Source of the DNA: Methylotenera mobilis JLW8
GTDB lineage: Bacteria > Pseudomonadota > Gammaproteobacteria > Burkholderiales > Methylophilaceae
Length of the DNA: 64,000 bases
Reading direction: 5' to 3'
Assembly: GCF_000023705.1 (NCBI RefSeq)
Contig: NC_012968.1
Location: forward strand, 806,001 to 870,000
The position numbers were made by a program, and so were the translations under genes. Positions 50,613 through 57,697 of the stretch are shown piece by piece. Below the pieces are notes generated by a model, which searched no databases, had not been told where the DNA came from, and saw only the letters and a list, made by a program, of their open reading frames with translations. Position 1 is the first letter of the stretch. The number at the start of each line of letters is the position of its first letter.

Positions 50613-51590
50613 ATGGCAAATTGGTTTGAAGATAATGCTCAATCTATTGGTAACACACCTTTGGTTAAGCTAAACCGGGTGACGGATGGTGCGCCAGCAG
50701 TGGTGCTTGCCAAAATTGAAGGCCGCAACCCAGCTTATTCAGTGAAGTGTCGTATTGGTGCGGCCATGATATGGGATGTCGAGCAGCGTGGCTTATTGGG
50801 GCCAGGCAAAGAGATTGTTGAGCCTACCAGCGGTAACACTGGGATTGCATTGGCTTTTGTTGCTGCAGCTAGAGGTATCCCGCTAACGCTTACCATGCCG
50901 GAAACCATGAGCGTGGAGCGTCGCAAGCTGCTGGTGGCCTATGGTGCAAAGTTAGTGTTAACTGAAGGTGCGAAAGGCATGAGCGGCGCGATTGCCAAAG
51001 CCGAGGAAATTGCGGCTTCGGATCCTAGCCGTTACGTACTGCTGCAGCAGTTTAAAAACCCAGCTAACCCTGAAATTCATGAGAAAACCACAGGCCCAGA
51101 AATCTGGGAAGCCACTGATGGAAAAATTGATATTTTAATATCTGGCGTGGGTACTGGCGGTACTATCACTGGCGTGTCTCGCTATATTAAAAACACACAA
51201 AAGAAAGCGATTGTCTCAGTAGCGGTAGAGCCGGCAGCTAGCCCGGTATTAAGCCAAAAACGGGCTGGTGAGGAGCTAAAACCAGCTCCGCATAAAATTC
51301 AAGGCATAGGCGCCGGCTTTGTACCAGACGTATTGGATTTATCGCTGGTGGATGATATTGCACAAGTAACGAATGAAGAGGCTGTACTGTATGCACAGCG
51401 CTTAGCTAAGGAAGAGGGAATTTTGTCTGGTATTTCTTGCGGGGCGGCGGTTGCTGTAGCGGTGCGCTATGCAAAACGTCCTGAAAATGCGGGTAAAACT
51501 ATCGTGGTGGTATTGCCTGACTCTGGCGAGCGTTATTTGAGCTCGATTCTGTTTGAGGGCTTTTTTGACGAAAAAGGTATCGCGATATAA
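50613..51590 (+). CDS. cysK: cysteine synthase A (O-acetylserine sulfhydrylase)
   Basis: PLP enzyme joining O-acetylserine and sulfide to cysteine. The 325 residues have [13 protein letters not shown], the PLP lysine in the [11 protein letters not shown] segment (normally SVKDR), [29 protein letters not shown] and the phosphate-binding [14 protein letters not shown]. Near the C-terminus is [11 protein letters not shown]. The SVKCR variant of the usual SVKDR is a minor change beside the lysine. It provides the step after serine acetyltransferase (EpsC, 53229), and the two may interact as cysteine synthase complex partners. Confidence 0.95.
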
Positions 51591-51654: not shown

Positions 51655-51687
51655 AGGCCTCCCATGCTGGAAACGCATGGGAGGCCT
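51655..51687. terminator. bidirectional hairpin between cysK and sbp
   Basis: Perfect 13-bp stem AGGCCTCCCATGC / GCATGGGAGGCCT with a 7-base loop between convergent genes. Followed by aattt on the plus strand and preceded by taaaa, so it may serve both strands. Confidence 0.75.
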
Positions 51688-51940: not shown

Positions 51941-52939
51941 TTATCGTTGGTAAATTTGGTCGAACAGCGCACCATCAGCAAAATGTACTTTTTGTGCTTT
52001 GCTCCAACTACCAAAAACATCATTGACACTAAATAACTCTATGTTTCTAAAGCGTGATTTATACTTGTCGGCAACTGCTGGCAGGCTTGGTCTTAGGTAG
52101 TGCTGTGCCGCAATTTCTTGGCCGGCTTCAGAAAAATGGTACTCTACATAAGCCTGGGCAAGCGCTTGATTTTTGTGTTTGATGGCAAATTTATCAACAA
52201 CGGTAACTGGGTTTTCGGCCAGAATGCTGGTGGATGGATAGACTACGTCAAATTTGTCGCCTAGTTCTTTTTTGATGAGATTGACTTCATTTTCAAACGT
52301 CAGCAATGCATCGCCAATATCACGTTGTGCAAATGTAGTGGTTGCGCCACGCCCACCAGTATCTAATACCGGTACATTTTTAAATAACTTGGCCACAAAA
52401 TCTTTTGCTTGGGCCTCGTTGCCACCTTTTTTGATGATATACCCCCAGGCTGCTAAATAGCTATATTTACCGTTACCTGACGTTTTAGGGTTAGGGATCA
52501 CCACACTGACCTCTGGTTTAACTAAGTCATCCCAATCTTTGATGTGCTTTGGGTTGCCTTTGCGCACCAAAAAAACGGTGGTGGAGTTAGTGGGTGAACT
52601 GGCATTGGGCAAGCGCTTTTGCCAGTCTTTAGGTATCAGTTTTGAGCGGTCATACAGGATATCAATATCCGGTGCTTGATTCATGGAGATGATGTCGGCC
52701 TCCAGGCCATCTGCTACAGATCTGGCCTGTTTGCTTGAGCCGCCGTGCGATTGATTGATGGTAACGGTTTCGCCAGTTTTTTGCTTCCAGTAGTTGATAA
52801 AAGATGGATTAAAGTCTTTATAAAACTCGCGCGTTACATCGTAAGACACATTGAGCAAGGTATTGTTGGCAAGGGCGTTGCCTGTGAACAATAAGCTGCT
52901 GATGGTCAGCAAGCCGGCAAAGATAGATTTTTTATACAT
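51941..52939 (-). CDS. sbp: periplasmic sulfate-binding protein (orphan)
   Basis: Periplasmic receptor for sulfate/thiosulfate ABC uptake. The 332 residues have a signal peptide (ending near NALA-NN), the mature start LLNVSYDVTREFYKDFNPSF and GGSSKQARSVADGLEADIIS. NPKTSGNGKYSYLAAWGY supplies sulfate-binding backbone contacts, and ENPVTVVDKFA follows. CysTWA permease and ATPase genes are not next to it, so it must serve a transporter encoded elsewhere. It is convergent with cysK and divergent from epsC, within a sulfur cluster. Confidence 0.93.
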   Translation of the reverse strand: MYKKSIFAGLLTISSLLFTGNALANNTLLNVSYDVTREFYKDFNPSFINYWKQKTGETVTINQSHGGSSKQARSVADGLEADIISMNQAPDIDILYDRSKLIPKDWQKRLPNASSPTNSTTVFLVRKGNPKHIKDWDDLVKPEVSVVIPNPKTSGNGKYSYLAAWGYIIKKGGNEAQAKDFVAKLFKNVPVLDTGGRGATTTFAQRDIGDALLTFENEVNLIKKELGDKFDVVYPSTSILAENPVTVVDKFAIKHKNQALAQAYVEYHFSEAGQEIAAQHYLRPSLPAVADKYKSRFRNIELFSVNDVFGSWSKAQKVHFADGALFDQIYQR

Positions 52940-53228
52940 AGTATTTACTCTAGTTTATTAATTAGGAGCACCTAAGTTAATGATTAATTTTAATAATGTA
53001 AAAGAATAAAAAACTATATCTATATAATTTAAAAATATTATTGAGGTATTTGTGAGTACTTTTTTAAATATGGAGAGTGGTGTATATTGATTGCACAAAA
53101 CAGGGCGACGATTAAAGCCCTGTCATTATTTTTAGAATTTTTCAGTTAGCGTGTGCTGACCGGACAACCGGAAGCCAGTGCGTCGAGAGACGCACTGGCT
53201 TTTTTTATTTTCTGCGACAGGTATTGAT
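52940..53228. promoter_or_regulatory. divergent sbp/epsC promoter region and hairpin-rich epsC leader
   Basis: 289 bases. A candidate promoter TTGAGG (53041-53046), 17-base spacer, TTAAAT (53064-53069) points toward epsC. Two hairpins follow, listed next. The 52950-53040 part is extremely AT-rich and may bind CysB-type or other regulators; no specific box could be called. Confidence 0.45.
53101..53206 (+). ncRNA. possible leader RNA or attenuator before epsC
   Basis: Hairpin CAGGGC/GCCCTG (53101-53106, 53117-53122) followed by a U-rich stretch is succeeded by a strong terminator: a perfect 11-bp stem GCCAGTGCGTC / GACGCACTGGC (53174-53184, 53189-53199) with GAGA loop and seven T. The terminator ends 22 bases before the epsC ATG, inside what should be its 5' leader. 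It may be an attenuator, a small RNA end, or a terminator insulating an upstream transcript. No known riboswitch recognised. Confidence 0.4.
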
Positions 53229-54164
53229 ATGTCTGACATAACGACGGTATTGCCAAATGAAAGTTTTGATATCCCAAGCATTGTGCAAGCGCTGCGCGAT
53301 GTAAGGGTGACTTCGTTGGAACATAGGCATCGACGTAACAAGCCGCCTAAGCTGCCTGCAAGAAAGGCATTGCAAACGGTGATTGATGGCTTAAGTGCGG
53401 CACTGTTCCCCAATCGACTGGGTGCGCCTGGTTTGAAAGACGAAGGCATAGATTATTTTGTAGGGTTTACTTTAGATACCGCGTTACGTGAACTGAATAC
53501 GCAAATTCAGCTGGAATTACGTTACTCCGCTGATACCGACCATGACAAAACTCCTAGCGCTGAAGCTGCCATGAACAAGGCACGTGCGTTTGCTAAGTCG
53601 TTACCAAAAATACGCAAATTGTTGGATACCGACTTAGATGCGGCATTTCAAGGTGACCCAGCCGCGCGCAGCCTGGATGAGGTGCTGGTTTGCTACCCAG
53701 GCATATCCGCCATTATTCATTACCGTTTAGCGCATGAGCTGCACAAACTAGGGTTGCCCCTGATTGCGCGCATTATTTCTGAACTAGCTCACTCTGCCAC
53801 AGGTATTGATATTCACCCTGGGGCGACGATTGATGAAGGCTTTTTTATTGACCATGGCACAGGGGTAGTGATTGGTGAAACCGCATTAATAGGGCGCCAC
53901 GTACGGTTGTACCAGGCCGTGACCTTAGGGGCAAAACGCTTCCCAACTGACGAGCAAGGCCATTTGATTAAAGGTAGTGCGAGGCACCCGATACTTGAAG
54001 ATGATGTGGTGATTTACGCAGGCGCCACGATATTAGGGCGCATCACGATAGGGGCTGGCTCCGTGATCGGCGGCAATGTGTGGCTGACGCGCAGCGTGCC
54101 GCCTAATAGCCAAATTACACAAGCTAAAACGCAAGTAAGCGCAACAGATGATGTTGCGCAGTAA
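53229..54164 (+). CDS. epsC: serine O-acetyltransferase, EpsC type
   Basis: Makes O-acetylserine for cysteine synthesis. The 311 residues contain an N-terminal helical region (about 1-165) and a left-handed beta-helix of hexapeptide repeats: GIDIHPGATIDEGFFIDHGT, VVIGETALIGRHVRLYQAVT, then GATILGRITIGAGSVIGGNV. DIHPGA and HGTGVVIGE are catalytic-site motifs of CysE-type enzymes. The start at 53229 is preferred; an in-frame upstream ATG at 53178 would lie inside the terminator hairpin. It is 24 bases upstream of the encapsulin gene and probably co-transcribed with it, linking cysteine supply to the compartment. Confidence 0.93.
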   Translation: MSDITTVLPNESFDIPSIVQALRDVRVTSLEHRHRRNKPPKLPARKALQTVIDGLSAALFPNRLGAPGLKDEGIDYFVGFTLDTALRELNTQIQLELRYSADTDHDKTPSAEAAMNKARAFAKSLPKIRKLLDTDLDAAFQGDPAARSLDEVLVCYPGISAIIHYRLAHELHKLGLPLIARIISELAHSATGIDIHPGATIDEGFFIDHGTGVVIGETALIGRHVRLYQAVTLGAKRFPTDEQGHLIKGSARHPILEDDVVIYAGATILGRITIGAGSVIGGNVWLTRSVPPNSQITQAKTQVSATDDVAQ

Positions 54165-54188
54165 ATCAATTTTTAACAGGAGAAACAA

Positions 54189-55106
54189 ATGACAGATATT
54201 CATCAAGCACATACCGCACTAGGGGATGTTGCTGCACGTACCCTATCGAACGCGACCAAAACCGTTCCGATGATGGGAACCATCACGCCGCGCTGGTTAG
54301 TGCATTTATTGCAGTGGGTACCAGTAGAGGCGGGTATTTACCGTGTAAATAAAGTTAAAGATCCAAGCGCAATTGAGGTGGATTGTTCTGCTAAAGATGA
54401 GCGTGACATTCCGGCAACTTTTGTTGATTACGAAGAGTGGGGCCGCGAGTACGTGCTTAATGCAGTGAATACAGCTGTGGATGTGCATACGCGCGTTTCT
54501 GATTTATACAGCAGCCCGCATAACCAAATTAAAGAGCAATTGCGCTTGACCATTGAAACGGTGAAAGAGCGCCAAGAGAGCGAACTGATTAACAATAAAG
54601 AATATGGTTTATTGAACAATATTGTTGACTCACAAAAAGTGAAGTCACGTACTGGCTTCCCTACACCGGATGACTTTGATGAGTTACTTTCTAAAGTATG
54701 GAAAGAGCCGGCATTCTTCTTGGCGCATCCGCAAGCTATCGCGGCATTTGGTCGTGAGTGCACACGTCGCGGCGTGCCACCACCAACCGTAGCATTGTTT
54801 GGCTCACAATTTATCACATGGCGCGGCGTGCCGATTATCCCTTGCGATAAATTGAAAGTGACTAACGGTAAAACCAATATTCTATTGTTGCGCACAGGTG
54901 AAAGCCGTCAAGGTGTGGTGGGCTTGTATCAGCCTAACTTGCCTGGTCAACAAAGCATGGGGCTATCTGTGCGTTTTATGGGCATTAACCACAAAGCGAT
55001 TGCATCGTACTTGGTTTCACTCTATTGCTCATTAGCGGTGCTGACCGATGACGCGATTGCAGTGTTGGAAAACGTTGATGTAGGCAACTACTATGACTAC
55101 AAGTAA
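54189..55106 (+). CDS. family 2A encapsulin nanocompartment shell protein
   Basis: 305 residues with the pattern of SrpI-like family 2A encapsulins, which have the HK97 capsid fold and self-assemble into protein shells. Visible cues are the N-terminal ALGDVAARTLSNATKT, TPRWLVHLLQWVPVEAGIYR, LINNKEYGLLNN, GFPTPDDFDELLSKVW and FFLAHPQAIAAFGRE. The C-terminal part includes VALFGSQFITWRGVPIIPCDK and GLSVRFMGINHKAIASYLVS. No cyclic-nucleotide-binding insertion is present, which argues for 2A rather than 2B. AGGAG precedes the ATG. Cargo should be the cysteine desulfurase overlapping its 3' end by 14 bases. Confidence 0.9.
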   Translation: MTDIHQAHTALGDVAARTLSNATKTVPMMGTITPRWLVHLLQWVPVEAGIYRVNKVKDPSAIEVDCSAKDERDIPATFVDYEEWGREYVLNAVNTAVDVHTRVSDLYSSPHNQIKEQLRLTIETVKERQESELINNKEYGLLNNIVDSQKVKSRTGFPTPDDFDELLSKVWKEPAFFLAHPQAIAAFGRECTRRGVPPPTVALFGSQFITWRGVPIIPCDKLKVTNGKTNILLLRTGESRQGVVGLYQPNLPGQQSMGLSVRFMGINHKAIASYLVSLYCSLAVLTDDAIAVLENVDVGNYYDYK

Positions 55107-56916
55107 TGGATATGCACCTGCATTAGGTGACTTATCTTCTTTTGAGCCTGAGGCGATACTGGCCTCTTTGCCCGGGGAGCATCCACATATGGCTACTGGC
55201 CTTGCCATTGGCAGGCAGGCTAGTGAAACTGGGCACCTTGATGTTGCCGAGTTAAGCCGTATTGCCAATGAGTTGTATGCAGATGGCTTCCCTGCGGGGG
55301 CGCCTTTTGCTCAGAGAGAAGAGTTTCCATCTAATGCTTCTTTAAACCCAGTGGTGGTGAATGCGGTCTTGCCAAGCGCCAATATTATTTCTGACCCAGT
55401 GCAAACGTCTGCTCCGTCAGCCTTATCGGCATTGCCTAGTGCTTTATCTGGTGCACTGCAAAATGTTTCGACTGGTGCTGAGTTTGCAACGCTCAATCAA
55501 ATCATAGGCGGCATTTATGATCCTTATCATCTGGAGCTAAATCAGCTCATTGATGACTTGGGTGTTAACTCAAATGCATCAGACAGCAATGCTGCTAGCC
55601 ATGACGCATCACCTTATTATTTTTTGCAAGGTGCAACACCGCAGCATGATGCATCTGCAGATAGTCAAGTGGCCAGCCAAGCTGCCAGTGCACATCCGCC
55701 ATTTGATGTGCATTCAGTGCGTAAGGACTTTCCTATATTGCGCGAGTTGGTAAATGGCCGTCCGCTGGTCTGGTTTGATAACGCGGCGACTACGCAAAAA
55801 CCCCAGGCAGTGATAGATAGAATCTCTTACTTTTACCAGCATGAGAACTCTAATATTCATCGCGCCGCACATGAATTGGCAGCACGTGCTACCGATGCTT
55901 ACGAAAGTGCACGTGAAGCGGTGAGACGTTTCATTAATGCACCGTCAGTAGATAACATTATTTTTGTGCGAGGTACCACGGAAGCGATTAATCTAGTCGC
56001 TAAAACTTGGGGTAGAAAGCATATTGGCGAAGGTGACGAGATTGTGATTTCACACCTGGAGCATCACGCCAATATTGTGCCGTGGCAACAGTTATGTCAG
56101 GAAACTGGCGCCAAATTAAAAGTGGCACCGGTAGATGATAGTGGGCAGGTGTTGTTAGCCGAGTATCAAAAACTGTTAACATCGCGTGTGAAATTGGTTT
56201 CATTTACCCAAGTGTCAAATGCCTTGGGGACGGTGACGCCAGCGGCTGAAATGATACAAATGGCACACCGTGCAGGCGCTAAAGTGCTGCTGGATGGTGC
56301 GCAGTCAGTGTCGCATATGCGCAGCGATGTTCAAACCTTGAGTCCTGATTTCTTTGTGTTCTCCGGGCATAAAGTGTTTGGCCCTACCGGTATTGGCGCG
56401 CTGTATGGTAAACCTGAAGTGTTGAATGATATGCCGGCATGGCAGGGCGGCGGCAATATGATTCAAGATGTGACCTTTGATAAGACGGTTTACCATGAAG
56501 CCCCAGCTAAATTTGAGGCGGGTACAGGTAATATTGCAGATGCCGTAGGGTTAGGCGCTGCACTTGAGTACGTAGAGCGCATTGGCATTGATAACATTGC
56601 GCGCTATGAGCATGATTTATTGGTATATGCCACGGCCGCGATGCAAAAAGTGCCTGGCCTGCATTTTATTGGCACAGCCAAAGACAAGGCTAGCGTGTTG
56701 TCTTTCAAGCTGGATGGCTTTAAAAGTGAAGAAGTCGGCGCGGCTTTGAATCAAGAGGGTATTGCAGTGCGCTCAGGTCATCATTGCGCACAGCCAATTT
56801 TACGTCGATTTGGCGTAGAAACAACGGTTCGACCATCGCTTGCGTTTTATAACACTACCGCTGAAGTTGATTTGATGGTGAGTGTGCTATTGCGCTTGGC
56901 TTCGCAGCGTGCCTAG
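55093..56916 (+). CDS. encapsulin-associated cysteine desulfurase (SufS-like) with N-terminal cargo-loading extension
   Basis: 607 residues, PLP-dependent, removing sulfur from L-cysteine to give alanine and an enzyme persulfide. Residues about 230-607 are a SufS-class desulfurase (usually about 410): VWFDNAATTQKPQAV, the SHLEHHANIVPW histidine, the PLP lysine K427 in FSGHKVFGP, and the sulfur-accepting C565 in VRSGHHCAQP. Residues 1 to about 225 are an Ala/Ser-rich, probably disordered extension with short conserved-looking islands (VAELSRIANELYADGF, about 50-65; YDPYHLELNQLIDDL, about 140-156; SPYYFLQGA). In known family 2A systems this type of extension directs the enzyme into the shell. 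Its ATG overlaps the encapsulin gene's end. Confidence 0.92.
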   Translation: MTTSNGYAPALGDLSSFEPEAILASLPGEHPHMATGLAIGRQASETGHLDVAELSRIANELYADGFPAGAPFAQREEFPSNASLNPVVVNAVLPSANIISDPVQTSAPSALSALPSALSGALQNVSTGAEFATLNQIIGGIYDPYHLELNQLIDDLGVNSNASDSNAASHDASPYYFLQGATPQHDASADSQVASQAASAHPPFDVHSVRKDFPILRELVNGRPLVWFDNAATTQKPQAVIDRISYFYQHENSNIHRAAHELAARATDAYESAREAVRRFINAPSVDNIIFVRGTTEAINLVAKTWGRKHIGEGDEIVISHLEHHANIVPWQQLCQETGAKLKVAPVDDSGQVLLAEYQKLLTSRVKLVSFTQVSNALGTVTPAAEMIQMAHRAGAKVLLDGAQSVSHMRSDVQTLSPDFFVFSGHKVFGPTGIGALYGKPEVLNDMPAWQGGGNMIQDVTFDKTVYHEAPAKFEAGTGNIADAVGLGAALEYVERIGIDNIARYEHDLLVYATAAMQKVPGLHFIGTAKDKASVLSFKLDGFKSEEVGAALNQEGIAVRSGHHCAQPILRRFGVETTVRPSLAFYNTTAEVDLMVSVLLRLASQRA

Positions 56917-57049: not shown

Positions 57050-57391
57050 TTATGCGTTGAATGGCCACCATTTCTTTTGGTTAAATGCAGATTCAATCGT
57101 TGGCTGCAACTCGTCTCTTTTAATAATATCAAACATTCTTTCTTTGGAGCCGCTAGGTATATACAGCACTTTAATGCCGCGTTTGGATGCGTAGTTTTTT
57201 ACTTTATGGGTGATGGAGTGATTGACCCACTTGGTGACTAACACGATCAATTTAGTGTTTTGTGGAATCACCTTATTACTGTCGCCGCCATTGCGACCAG
57301 ACCAGTGCTGGATATTGTCTATGCCGTAATTACCAAAAACCTCTTTGATACCATCTACTTGGTCGCCACCTACAATTAATACTGAACTCAT
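57050..57391 (-). CDS. DUF2325 protein
   Basis: 113 residues with the DUF2325 Rossmann-like layout: SSVLIVGGDQVDGIKEVF, a central charged segment with histidine (NIQHWSGRNGGDS), then LIVLVTKWVNHSITHKVKN and KRGIKVLYIPSGS. The family is small, of unknown function, sometimes annotated as dihydroorotate dehydrogenase-like. It is convergent with the desulfurase gene and upstream of the YezD-like gene on the same strand, so it may belong to the sulfur cluster. Confidence 0.75.
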   Translation of the reverse strand: MSSVLIVGGDQVDGIKEVFGNYGIDNIQHWSGRNGGDSNKVIPQNTKLIVLVTKWVNHSITHKVKNYASKRGIKVLYIPSGSKERMFDIIKRDELQPTIESAFNQKKWWPFNA

Positions 57392-57502: not shown

Positions 57503-57697
57503 TTAATCTTGCGGCAGTCTGATTTTTTCACGTTTTTCAATTTGGGTAACACGGCCTTCGTGTAAGATGATTTCTACCGAGCCGTATCCTGTGCCAAGCT
57601 TTAGCTCTTCAACTGCACGTAAAATGTTTTCTGATAAATCACGGTTTTTATAGTTACTGATTGTTGTCGTTTTATGTTGTACTTGGTTGAGTGACAT
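57503..57697 (-). CDS. YezD-like small protein (DUF2292)
   Basis: 64 residues; the C-terminal half fits the YezD/DUF2292 pattern: LRAVEELKLGTGYGSVEIILHEGRVTQIEKREKIR, predicted beta-hairpin around a short helix. YezD-like proteins are often encoded beside sulfate, sulfonate or cysteine genes, from general knowledge; their function is unresolved. aaggag precedes the ATG (57704-57709 on the minus strand). Located upstream of DUF2325 on the same strand, about 110 bases apart. Confidence 0.65.
   Translation of the reverse strand: MSLNQVQHKTTTISNYKNRDLSENILRAVEELKLGTGYGSVEIILHEGRVTQIEKREKIRLPQD

Follow-up and report, generated by a model that had tools for sequence, protein, structure and literature searches.

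The operon and its leader

The stretch of the Methylotenera mobilis JLW8 chromosome analysed here (64,000 nucleotides; the window) carries three consecutive plus-strand genes: epsC, the shell gene of a family 2A encapsulin, and the gene for a cysteine desulfurase predicted to be its cargo. EpsC and the shell are separated by a gap of 24 nucleotides (nt), and the shell and desulfurase genes overlap by 14 nt. In front of epsC lies a short leader hairpin that shares bases with an intrinsic terminator. This leader was absent from an earlier account of the operon made from the letters alone (here called the sequence-only reading). We describe it as a candidate cis-regulatory RNA, apparently undescribed, which may connect the operon to other genes of sulfur assimilation. 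The features of the operon are as follows.

53155..53175, plus strand: conserved 21-nt leader hairpin, GCU-GA-CCGG-ACAA-CCGG-A-AGC (hairpin covariance model, 38.4 bits; alignments; covariation)
53173..53206, plus strand: intrinsic terminator, with a stem of 12 base pairs (bp) at 53173-53200, loop GAGA and a U-tract to 53206 (from the fold)
53229..54164, plus strand: epsC, serine O-acetyltransferase (NF041874 EpsC, 164 bits against a cut-off of 150)
54189..55106, plus strand: family 2A encapsulin shell protein, SrpI-like, 305 amino acids (NF041162, PF19307, 6x8m)
55093..56916, plus strand: encapsulin cargo cysteine desulfurase, SufS type, 607 amino acids, with an N-terminal loading domain at about residues 1-195 (NF041166)
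55252..55281, plus strand: cargo-loading motif 1, LSRIANELYA (published form LARLANEFFS, from the available text of Nichols 2021, PMC8049743)
55603..55632, plus strand: cargo-loading motif 2, DASPYYFLQG (published form AASPYYFLDG, same source)

The gene identities and spacings proposed in the sequence-only reading agree with the coordinates and with profile searches. The shell protein falls inside the encapsulins, with 539.5 bits against the NCBIfam profile of family 2A shells, NF041162 (cut-off 380), and it aligns over residues 7-305 (299 residues) with the solved Synechococcus SrpI, 6x8m (E = 6e-154). It also exceeds the cut-off of the 2B profile (421 against 400), via the common shell part (profile positions 210-449 of 450); its only Pfam match is PF19307 (SrpI-like), without the cNMP-binding domain that is the mark of 2B. 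The desulfurase passes both NF041166, the profile of family 2A cargo cysteine desulfurases (910 bits, cut-off 800), and TIGR01979, that of the SufS subfamily (551 bits, cut-off 475). Its best solved match, 8kg1, spans residues 196-603, and none of the 60 solved matches shown reaches before residue 196. The sequence contains SGHK and RSGHHCAQP, which we take to be the catalytic motifs, and its long N-terminal extension contains both loading motifs. Loose regular expressions found motif 1 in 58 of 78 relatives and motif 2 in 18 of 78, where the second motif is either often lost, or too diverged for the expression used, or outside the frame taken. An assembled shell of about 25 nm with desulfurase cargo is predicted here from family membership.

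The serine acetyltransferase had been called EpsC, and this is the profile that it passes; it scores below the cut-off of the cysE profile TIGR01172 (167.6 against 210.65). A mechanical list of open reading frames starts the gene inside the terminator, at a GTG (53178); alignment with relatives favours the ATG at 53229. The C-terminal isoleucine of serine acetyltransferase relates to the cysteine synthase complex, and a pattern in this residue was considered and set aside as inconsistent (27 of 71 relatives end in isoleucine, and the protein of the window in glutamine).

The encapsulin operon is a member of a published system. In their available text, Andreas & Giessen 2021 (PMC8346489) count 1281 family 2A desulfurase operons, 813 of them in Proteobacteria, and report that among accessory genes enrichment is greatest for serine acetyltransferases and rhodaneses. 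The operon studied here has the same gene set, but no rhodanese is present among the neighbours scanned, and the available part of that paper mentions no leader RNA. It also resembles SrpI-CyD of Synechococcus elongatus, likewise of family 2A, in the shell match, the long N-terminal loading domain of the desulfurase and both published motifs; it differs in having an attenuator-like leader 5' of the operon, and in lying on a methylotroph chromosome rather than a plasmid. SrpI-CyD is induced by sulfur starvation: according to the available text of Nichols 2021 (PMC8049743), the Synechococcus shell rises upon sulfate starvation, and knockouts of the shell or the desulfurase had no growth defect, with or without sulfur starvation.

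The host is indeed a methylotroph, as had been supposed: its genome (2.55 Mb, a single contig) encodes pyrroloquinoline quinone (PQQ) alcohol dehydrogenases above the family cut-off, and the closest named relative of the locus is that of Methylotenera oryzisoli (L007), where the shell is 100% identical and ParE and the available part of ParC are 99% identical. The suggestion that use in a methylotroph is the new angle did not survive, because presence in methylotrophs is ordinary for the group. Within the host's GTDB family the shell profile matches 55 of 150 genomes (51 of 109 good-quality genomes; 16 of 24 genera), and operons bearing a serine acetyltransferase were already in the available text of PMC8346489. 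Shell relatives were collected by a scan of one genome per species (84,980 species), and the loci used below are the best 80 of at least 593 confirmed relatives. By title, these 80 are from Methylophilaceae, Nitrosomonas and its kin, Methylococcales and a few others, many of them methylotrophs or methanotrophs. One contig of a Methylococcales metagenome-assembled genome (MAG), JAQTOX010000034.1, holds two separate serine acetyltransferase-shell-desulfurase operons (L067 and L074), both without the leader hairpin inside 4 kb 5' of the shell.

Elemental sulfur storage in an encapsulin is reportedly the titled result of Benisch et al. 2024. We propose that here, too, the desulfurase would build up a sulfur reserve from cysteine inside the shell, at times when sulfur handling is increased. 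The shell might instead insulate the enzyme or feed sulfur to a specific acceptor, as proposed in the available texts of Nichols 2021 (PMC8049743) and Andreas & Giessen 2021 (PMC8346489). We regard this as improbable, though it survives best among the alternatives considered: the storage result stands against it, as does the lack of a rhodanese among the seven proteins scanned with Pfam between 50.6 and 57.7 kb.

A hairpin fused to a terminator

The hairpin consists of a 3-bp helix (P1), an asymmetric internal loop GA/A, a 4-bp helix (P2) and a tetraloop, with the consensus NCU-GA-CCRG-NNNN-CYGG-A-AGN. The 3' strand of P1, AGC, is also the first three bases of the terminator, whose U-tract ends 22 nt before the epsC ATG. 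The region 53075-53240 folds with -60.1 kcal/mol (z -5.87). A terminator between sbp, the gene upstream, and epsC would otherwise be out of place, and we therefore take it as conditional. A near-identical leader block occurs in most Methylophilaceae loci inspected and in many Methylococcales too, and its flanks diverge.

Covariation was analysed in an alignment of 68 hairpin copies (31 distinct rows), 61 of which came from a pattern search that demanded P2 complementarity and constrained P1 at its third pair alone. Pairing holds in 96.8% of the cells, and four of the seven pairs change on both sides, which 19 of 500 shuffles also reach in a test that leaves kinship in. The number of pair types is reached by 3 of 500 shuffles, and the covariation score of 0.318 (shuffled mean 0.175) by none of 500; slid controls give at most 0.137. 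The third pair of P1 (positions 3 and 19) is UA in 22, UG in 4, CG in 3, GU in 1 and other in 1 of the 31 distinct rows, and its two-sided changes (CG three times, GU once) stem from copies outside the 61 selected by pattern. The strand of P1 that is shared with the terminator covaries. The lower terminator stem also varies in a compensatory manner, its seventh pair being UA in 24, UG in 16, CG in 6 and AU in 2 of 48 copies. Among the 61 first-pass copies, a stem start and a T-run are both found in 48, of which 46 pair over at least 7 bp; in L035 and L071 the script apparently picked a T-run inside the loop.

In all 47 copies computed, the terminator state is favoured by 2.7-5.1 kcal/mol over the state with P1 formed. 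The leader alone should therefore terminate, making off the default, and P1 needs to be stabilised from outside. An intrinsic terminator should be badly impaired when its stem and U-tract are parted by three unpaired bases. From these relations we infer a direction of switching. Transcripts begun upstream of 53155 would end before epsC, as the terminator is the structure that forms by default. In response to the sulfur state, an effector (an RNA-binding protein or, less likely, a small molecule) would stabilise the 21-nt hairpin; P1 would then capture the AGC that begins the terminator stem, leaving the stem 3 nt off the U-tract and allowing read-through into epsC, shell and desulfurase. The same hairpin would serve a small sulfur regulon. 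In Methylomonas (L032 and L040) a second copy of the hairpin, with its own terminator, stands between the serine acetyltransferase and the shell, an arrangement that allows separate control of the shell and of cysteine synthesis.

This arrangement is similar to the antiterminator hairpins of the ribonucleic antiterminator (RAT)/LicT type, which are also short, have an asymmetric internal loop and overlap the 5' arm of a terminator; the sequence, length and target genes differ here. S-box (SAM-I) leaders, too, are terminator-linked and common to a sulfur regulon, but unlike them the window leader has no match to a SAM family in Rfam. The search of Rfam 15 with positions 52900-53300 gave four matches at E up to 5, all far below the gathering scores, and 14 related loci gave none at E 0.5. 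No published title on the leader hairpin, or on encapsulins in methylotrophs, was among the matches listed, and the available text of a survey of premature terminators (PMC2965389) mentions neither 'Methylo' nor 'cysK'.

Riboswitches, such as the S-box and SAM classes, are common as leaders of sulfur genes. Instead of binding a protein, the hairpin could itself sense a metabolite as a riboswitch, with O-acetylserine, cysteine or another sulfur compound as examples of a ligand; its near-invariant nucleotides outside the helices and its GA/A internal loop would suit this. We consider it unlikely, because 21 nt with seven pairs is very small for an aptamer, because by eye the upstream sequence is kept in close relatives only, with no further aptamer part seen, and because Rfam gave no match. 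A possible third hairpin upstream (GUUAGC/GCUGAC) forms at least 5 bp in 13 of 48 copies, against 5.6% of shuffles, mostly in close relatives by eye; as an optional addition, it would make a three-state switch. A cysteine-codon leader peptide, acting by ribosome stalling, was also considered and rejected, as no cysteine run was seen by eye in the window leader or the upstream stretches of relatives. The codon before the conserved TGA varies among leaders (TGC, CGC, AGC).

We are still more doubtful of a DNA operator, in which the motif would bind a transcription factor and the terminator would be incidental. P2 (CCGG-N4-CCGG) is palindromic as DNA and its sequence is strongly conserved, as expected for such a site. 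However, P1 pairs across a 2-versus-1 internal loop, which is a misfit for a DNA dyad, and yet it covaries; a terminator stem of at least 7 bp with a U-tract follows 46 of the 61 first-pass copies; and the second copies in L032 and L040 come with a terminator as well.

Genes behind the hairpin

A covariance model built from the 61 copies was run over the window and the 80 loci (81 sources, 1,227,893 bases). It gave 67 matches of at least 22.9 bits (E up to 1.4e-4), most of which belong to its training set; the next match has 17 bits (E 0.03). The downstream gene was taken as the first open frame of at least 200 residues inside 500 nt and named by its best BLASTP match to the window proteins or to two porins from the matches. 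It encodes serine acetyltransferase behind 29 of the hairpins, cysK behind 19, a porin of the Porin_O_P type behind 10, encapsulin behind five and a porin of the alginate-export type behind four, with no other gene. Searching by pattern with pairing gave, by our count, 60 matches in the same sequences, and one in the loci reversed or complemented. As doubtful as the operator is a leader that acts in trans, as a small RNA or sponge of its own with its end at the terminator, while a separate promoter downstream serves epsC. A stable terminator-ended RNA is possible, but in the window the 22 nt from U-tract to epsC ATG leave too little room for a full sigma-70 promoter, and each of the 67 matches has a serine acetyltransferase, cysK, encapsulin or porin gene as the next long frame on its strand.

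The regulatory leader proposed here was also sought in 30 whole genomes picked from the loci, the top 150 first-look candidates per genome being scored. At E < 1e-5 there were 37 matches, by our tally 13 in front of serine acetyltransferase, eight of cysK, eight of a porin, four of a sigma-54 activator, two of encapsulin, one of cysJ and one without a sensible gene (L192). The cysJ product (L186) scores 773 bits against its profile (cut-off 668), and the next frame looks like cysI by eye. The sigma-54 activators (358-364 residues) come from three Methylomonas genomes and one Methylococcaceae MAG; the call was made by profile on L185 and by matching N-terminal residues in L158, L188 and L189. 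A sigma-54 activator preceded by the hairpin recalls SfnR, in our view. Matches at E between 1e-5 and 1e-3 are mixed, with porins (L193, L195, L198) and unrelated or no genes (L194, L196, L197, L199-L201).

Within the host genome the pattern matches twice and the control not at all: once at the epsC operon, and once in the intergenic stretch from a DUF2292/OscA-like gene to a porin gene. In the host family it is found in 87 of 187 genomes (control matches in seven), including 53 of the 55 with the shell. A class-wide pattern search matched 166 of 369 genomes, for which breadth the motif is too short. On scoring 29 of these matches, four reached at least 22 bits, three of them inside long open frames (L136, L147, L148) and one not (L151). 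Our conclusions on the hairpin are confined to Methylophilaceae and Methylococcales.

Several observations weigh against the leader as a shared regulatory RNA. There is no hairpin inside 4 kb 5' of the shell in 30 of the 80 encapsulin loci. These include Nitrosomonas (L018, L021, L022, L024, L027-L029, L034), Methylococcales such as L048, L054, L062, L067 and L074, and L033 from Methylophilaceae, where the upstream genes are present; some hairpin-less loci are cut contigs (L011, L025). Proximity to sulfur genes is partly built in, as similarity to the shell decided which loci were collected, and the 30 genomes come from these loci. The requirement for P2 complementarity in 61 of the 68 copies inflates the P2 count. 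P1 is short, at 3 bp, and its outer pair is broken in 6 of the 31 distinct rows. Finally, the porin copies have no terminator, and a cysK copy (L037) has no clear one. Attenuation therefore cannot be the mechanism of the porin copies, where the hairpin lies about 15-60 nt from the start codon and translation or mRNA stability is the likelier level of control.

Weighing these points, we consider the leader a well-supported conserved structure, with moderate support for its role as an attenuator. We assign a probability of roughly 0.55 to the following proposal: the hairpin and its fused terminator make up a class of cis-regulatory RNA not described before, which controls genes of sulfur assimilation and of the nanocompartment in Methylophilaceae and Methylococcales, and which responds to sulfur status through either a ligand or an antiterminator that binds RNA, with OscA/DUF2292 as a possible link. 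For the window itself we lean slightly more firmly towards a family 2A encapsulin with desulfurase cargo, co-transcribed with EpsC, under transcription attenuation.

Neighbouring genes and the sulfur signal

The genes around the operon, together with the second DUF2292 gene of the host, are listed below.

50613..51590, plus strand: cysK, cysteine synthase A (TIGR01139, 453.6 bits)
51941..52939, minus strand: sbp, binding protein of a sulfate/thiosulfate ABC transporter, divergent (TIGR00971, 426.8 bits)
57050..57391, minus strand: DUF2325 protein (PF10087, 49 bits)
57503..57697, minus strand: small DUF2292/OscA-like protein (PF10055, 56.3 bits; NF033785 OscA, 37.7 bits, below the cut-off of 85)
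L094:1500-1763 (about C1:228037-228300), minus strand: second DUF2292/OscA-like gene, directly 5' of the hairpin and porin (pattern match)

The sequence-only reading had placed cysK and sbp next door. Both do adjoin the operon, but cysK is probably outside the epsC transcription unit in the window, because sbp stands between them on the opposite strand. A strong terminator-like hairpin lies at 51655-51687, in the gap after cysK. Relatives of the DUF2325 and DUF2292 genes are found 3' of the cargo gene in many Methylophilaceae loci.

By its position, DUF2292/OscA is an attractive candidate for the effector that binds the hairpin. It is present in all 55 shell-bearing genomes of the family sample and in 73 of the 87 pattern-bearing genomes, and in many genomes a DUF2292 match lies just 5' of a hairpin match on the same strand. 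The 14 pattern-bearing genomes without it were mostly judged to hold chance matches; one of them (G170, 79% complete) has a canonical-looking element. OscA is named for sulfur starvation in NCBIfam, and both DUF2292 proteins of the host are below the OscA cut-off. The AlphaFold model of DUF2292 is a helix plus hairpin (pLDDT 76), for which Foldseek gave no match at E 0.001; no solved relative was found at E 1.

Elsewhere, the host genome has a second serine acetyltransferase gene (C1:1828901), with two class V aminotransferase genes close by, and a further class V aminotransferase at C1:1223877, which shares 53% identity with the cargo enzyme over 396 residues. It also has a second cysK/M besides the cysK of the window. 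These extra genes suggest that housekeeping cysteine synthesis, and probably desulfuration, are handled elsewhere, and that the operon is specialised. Because of them, cysteine made by EpsC/CysK, which the earlier proposal has the desulfurase use, is indistinguishable from any other.

The sequence-only reading further held that sulfur is stored when it is abundant. The evidence points the other way: the Synechococcus shell rises on sulfate starvation (available text of PMC8049743), and the hairpin is common to genes of assimilation and, by gene family, of scarcity (cysK, cysJ and the oscA-linked porins). From this shared set and the published induction of SrpI we infer that the shell would answer scarce or shifting sulfur rather than plenty. 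Its role as a store in this organism would rest on the result reported by Benisch et al. 2024.

The leader thus suggests how and when sulfur shells may be switched on in methanol- and methane-eating bacteria. An RNA by which the shell is linked with cysK, cysJ, a sigma-54 activator and OscA-linked porins would make the shell-inducing signal testable in cultured methylotrophs. If our reading is correct, the leader would be a new RNA element of sulfur-linked control and, as far as the present searches show, the first RNA-level control seen for an encapsulin; its short sequence would then help to find the sulfur regulons of C1-using bacteria.

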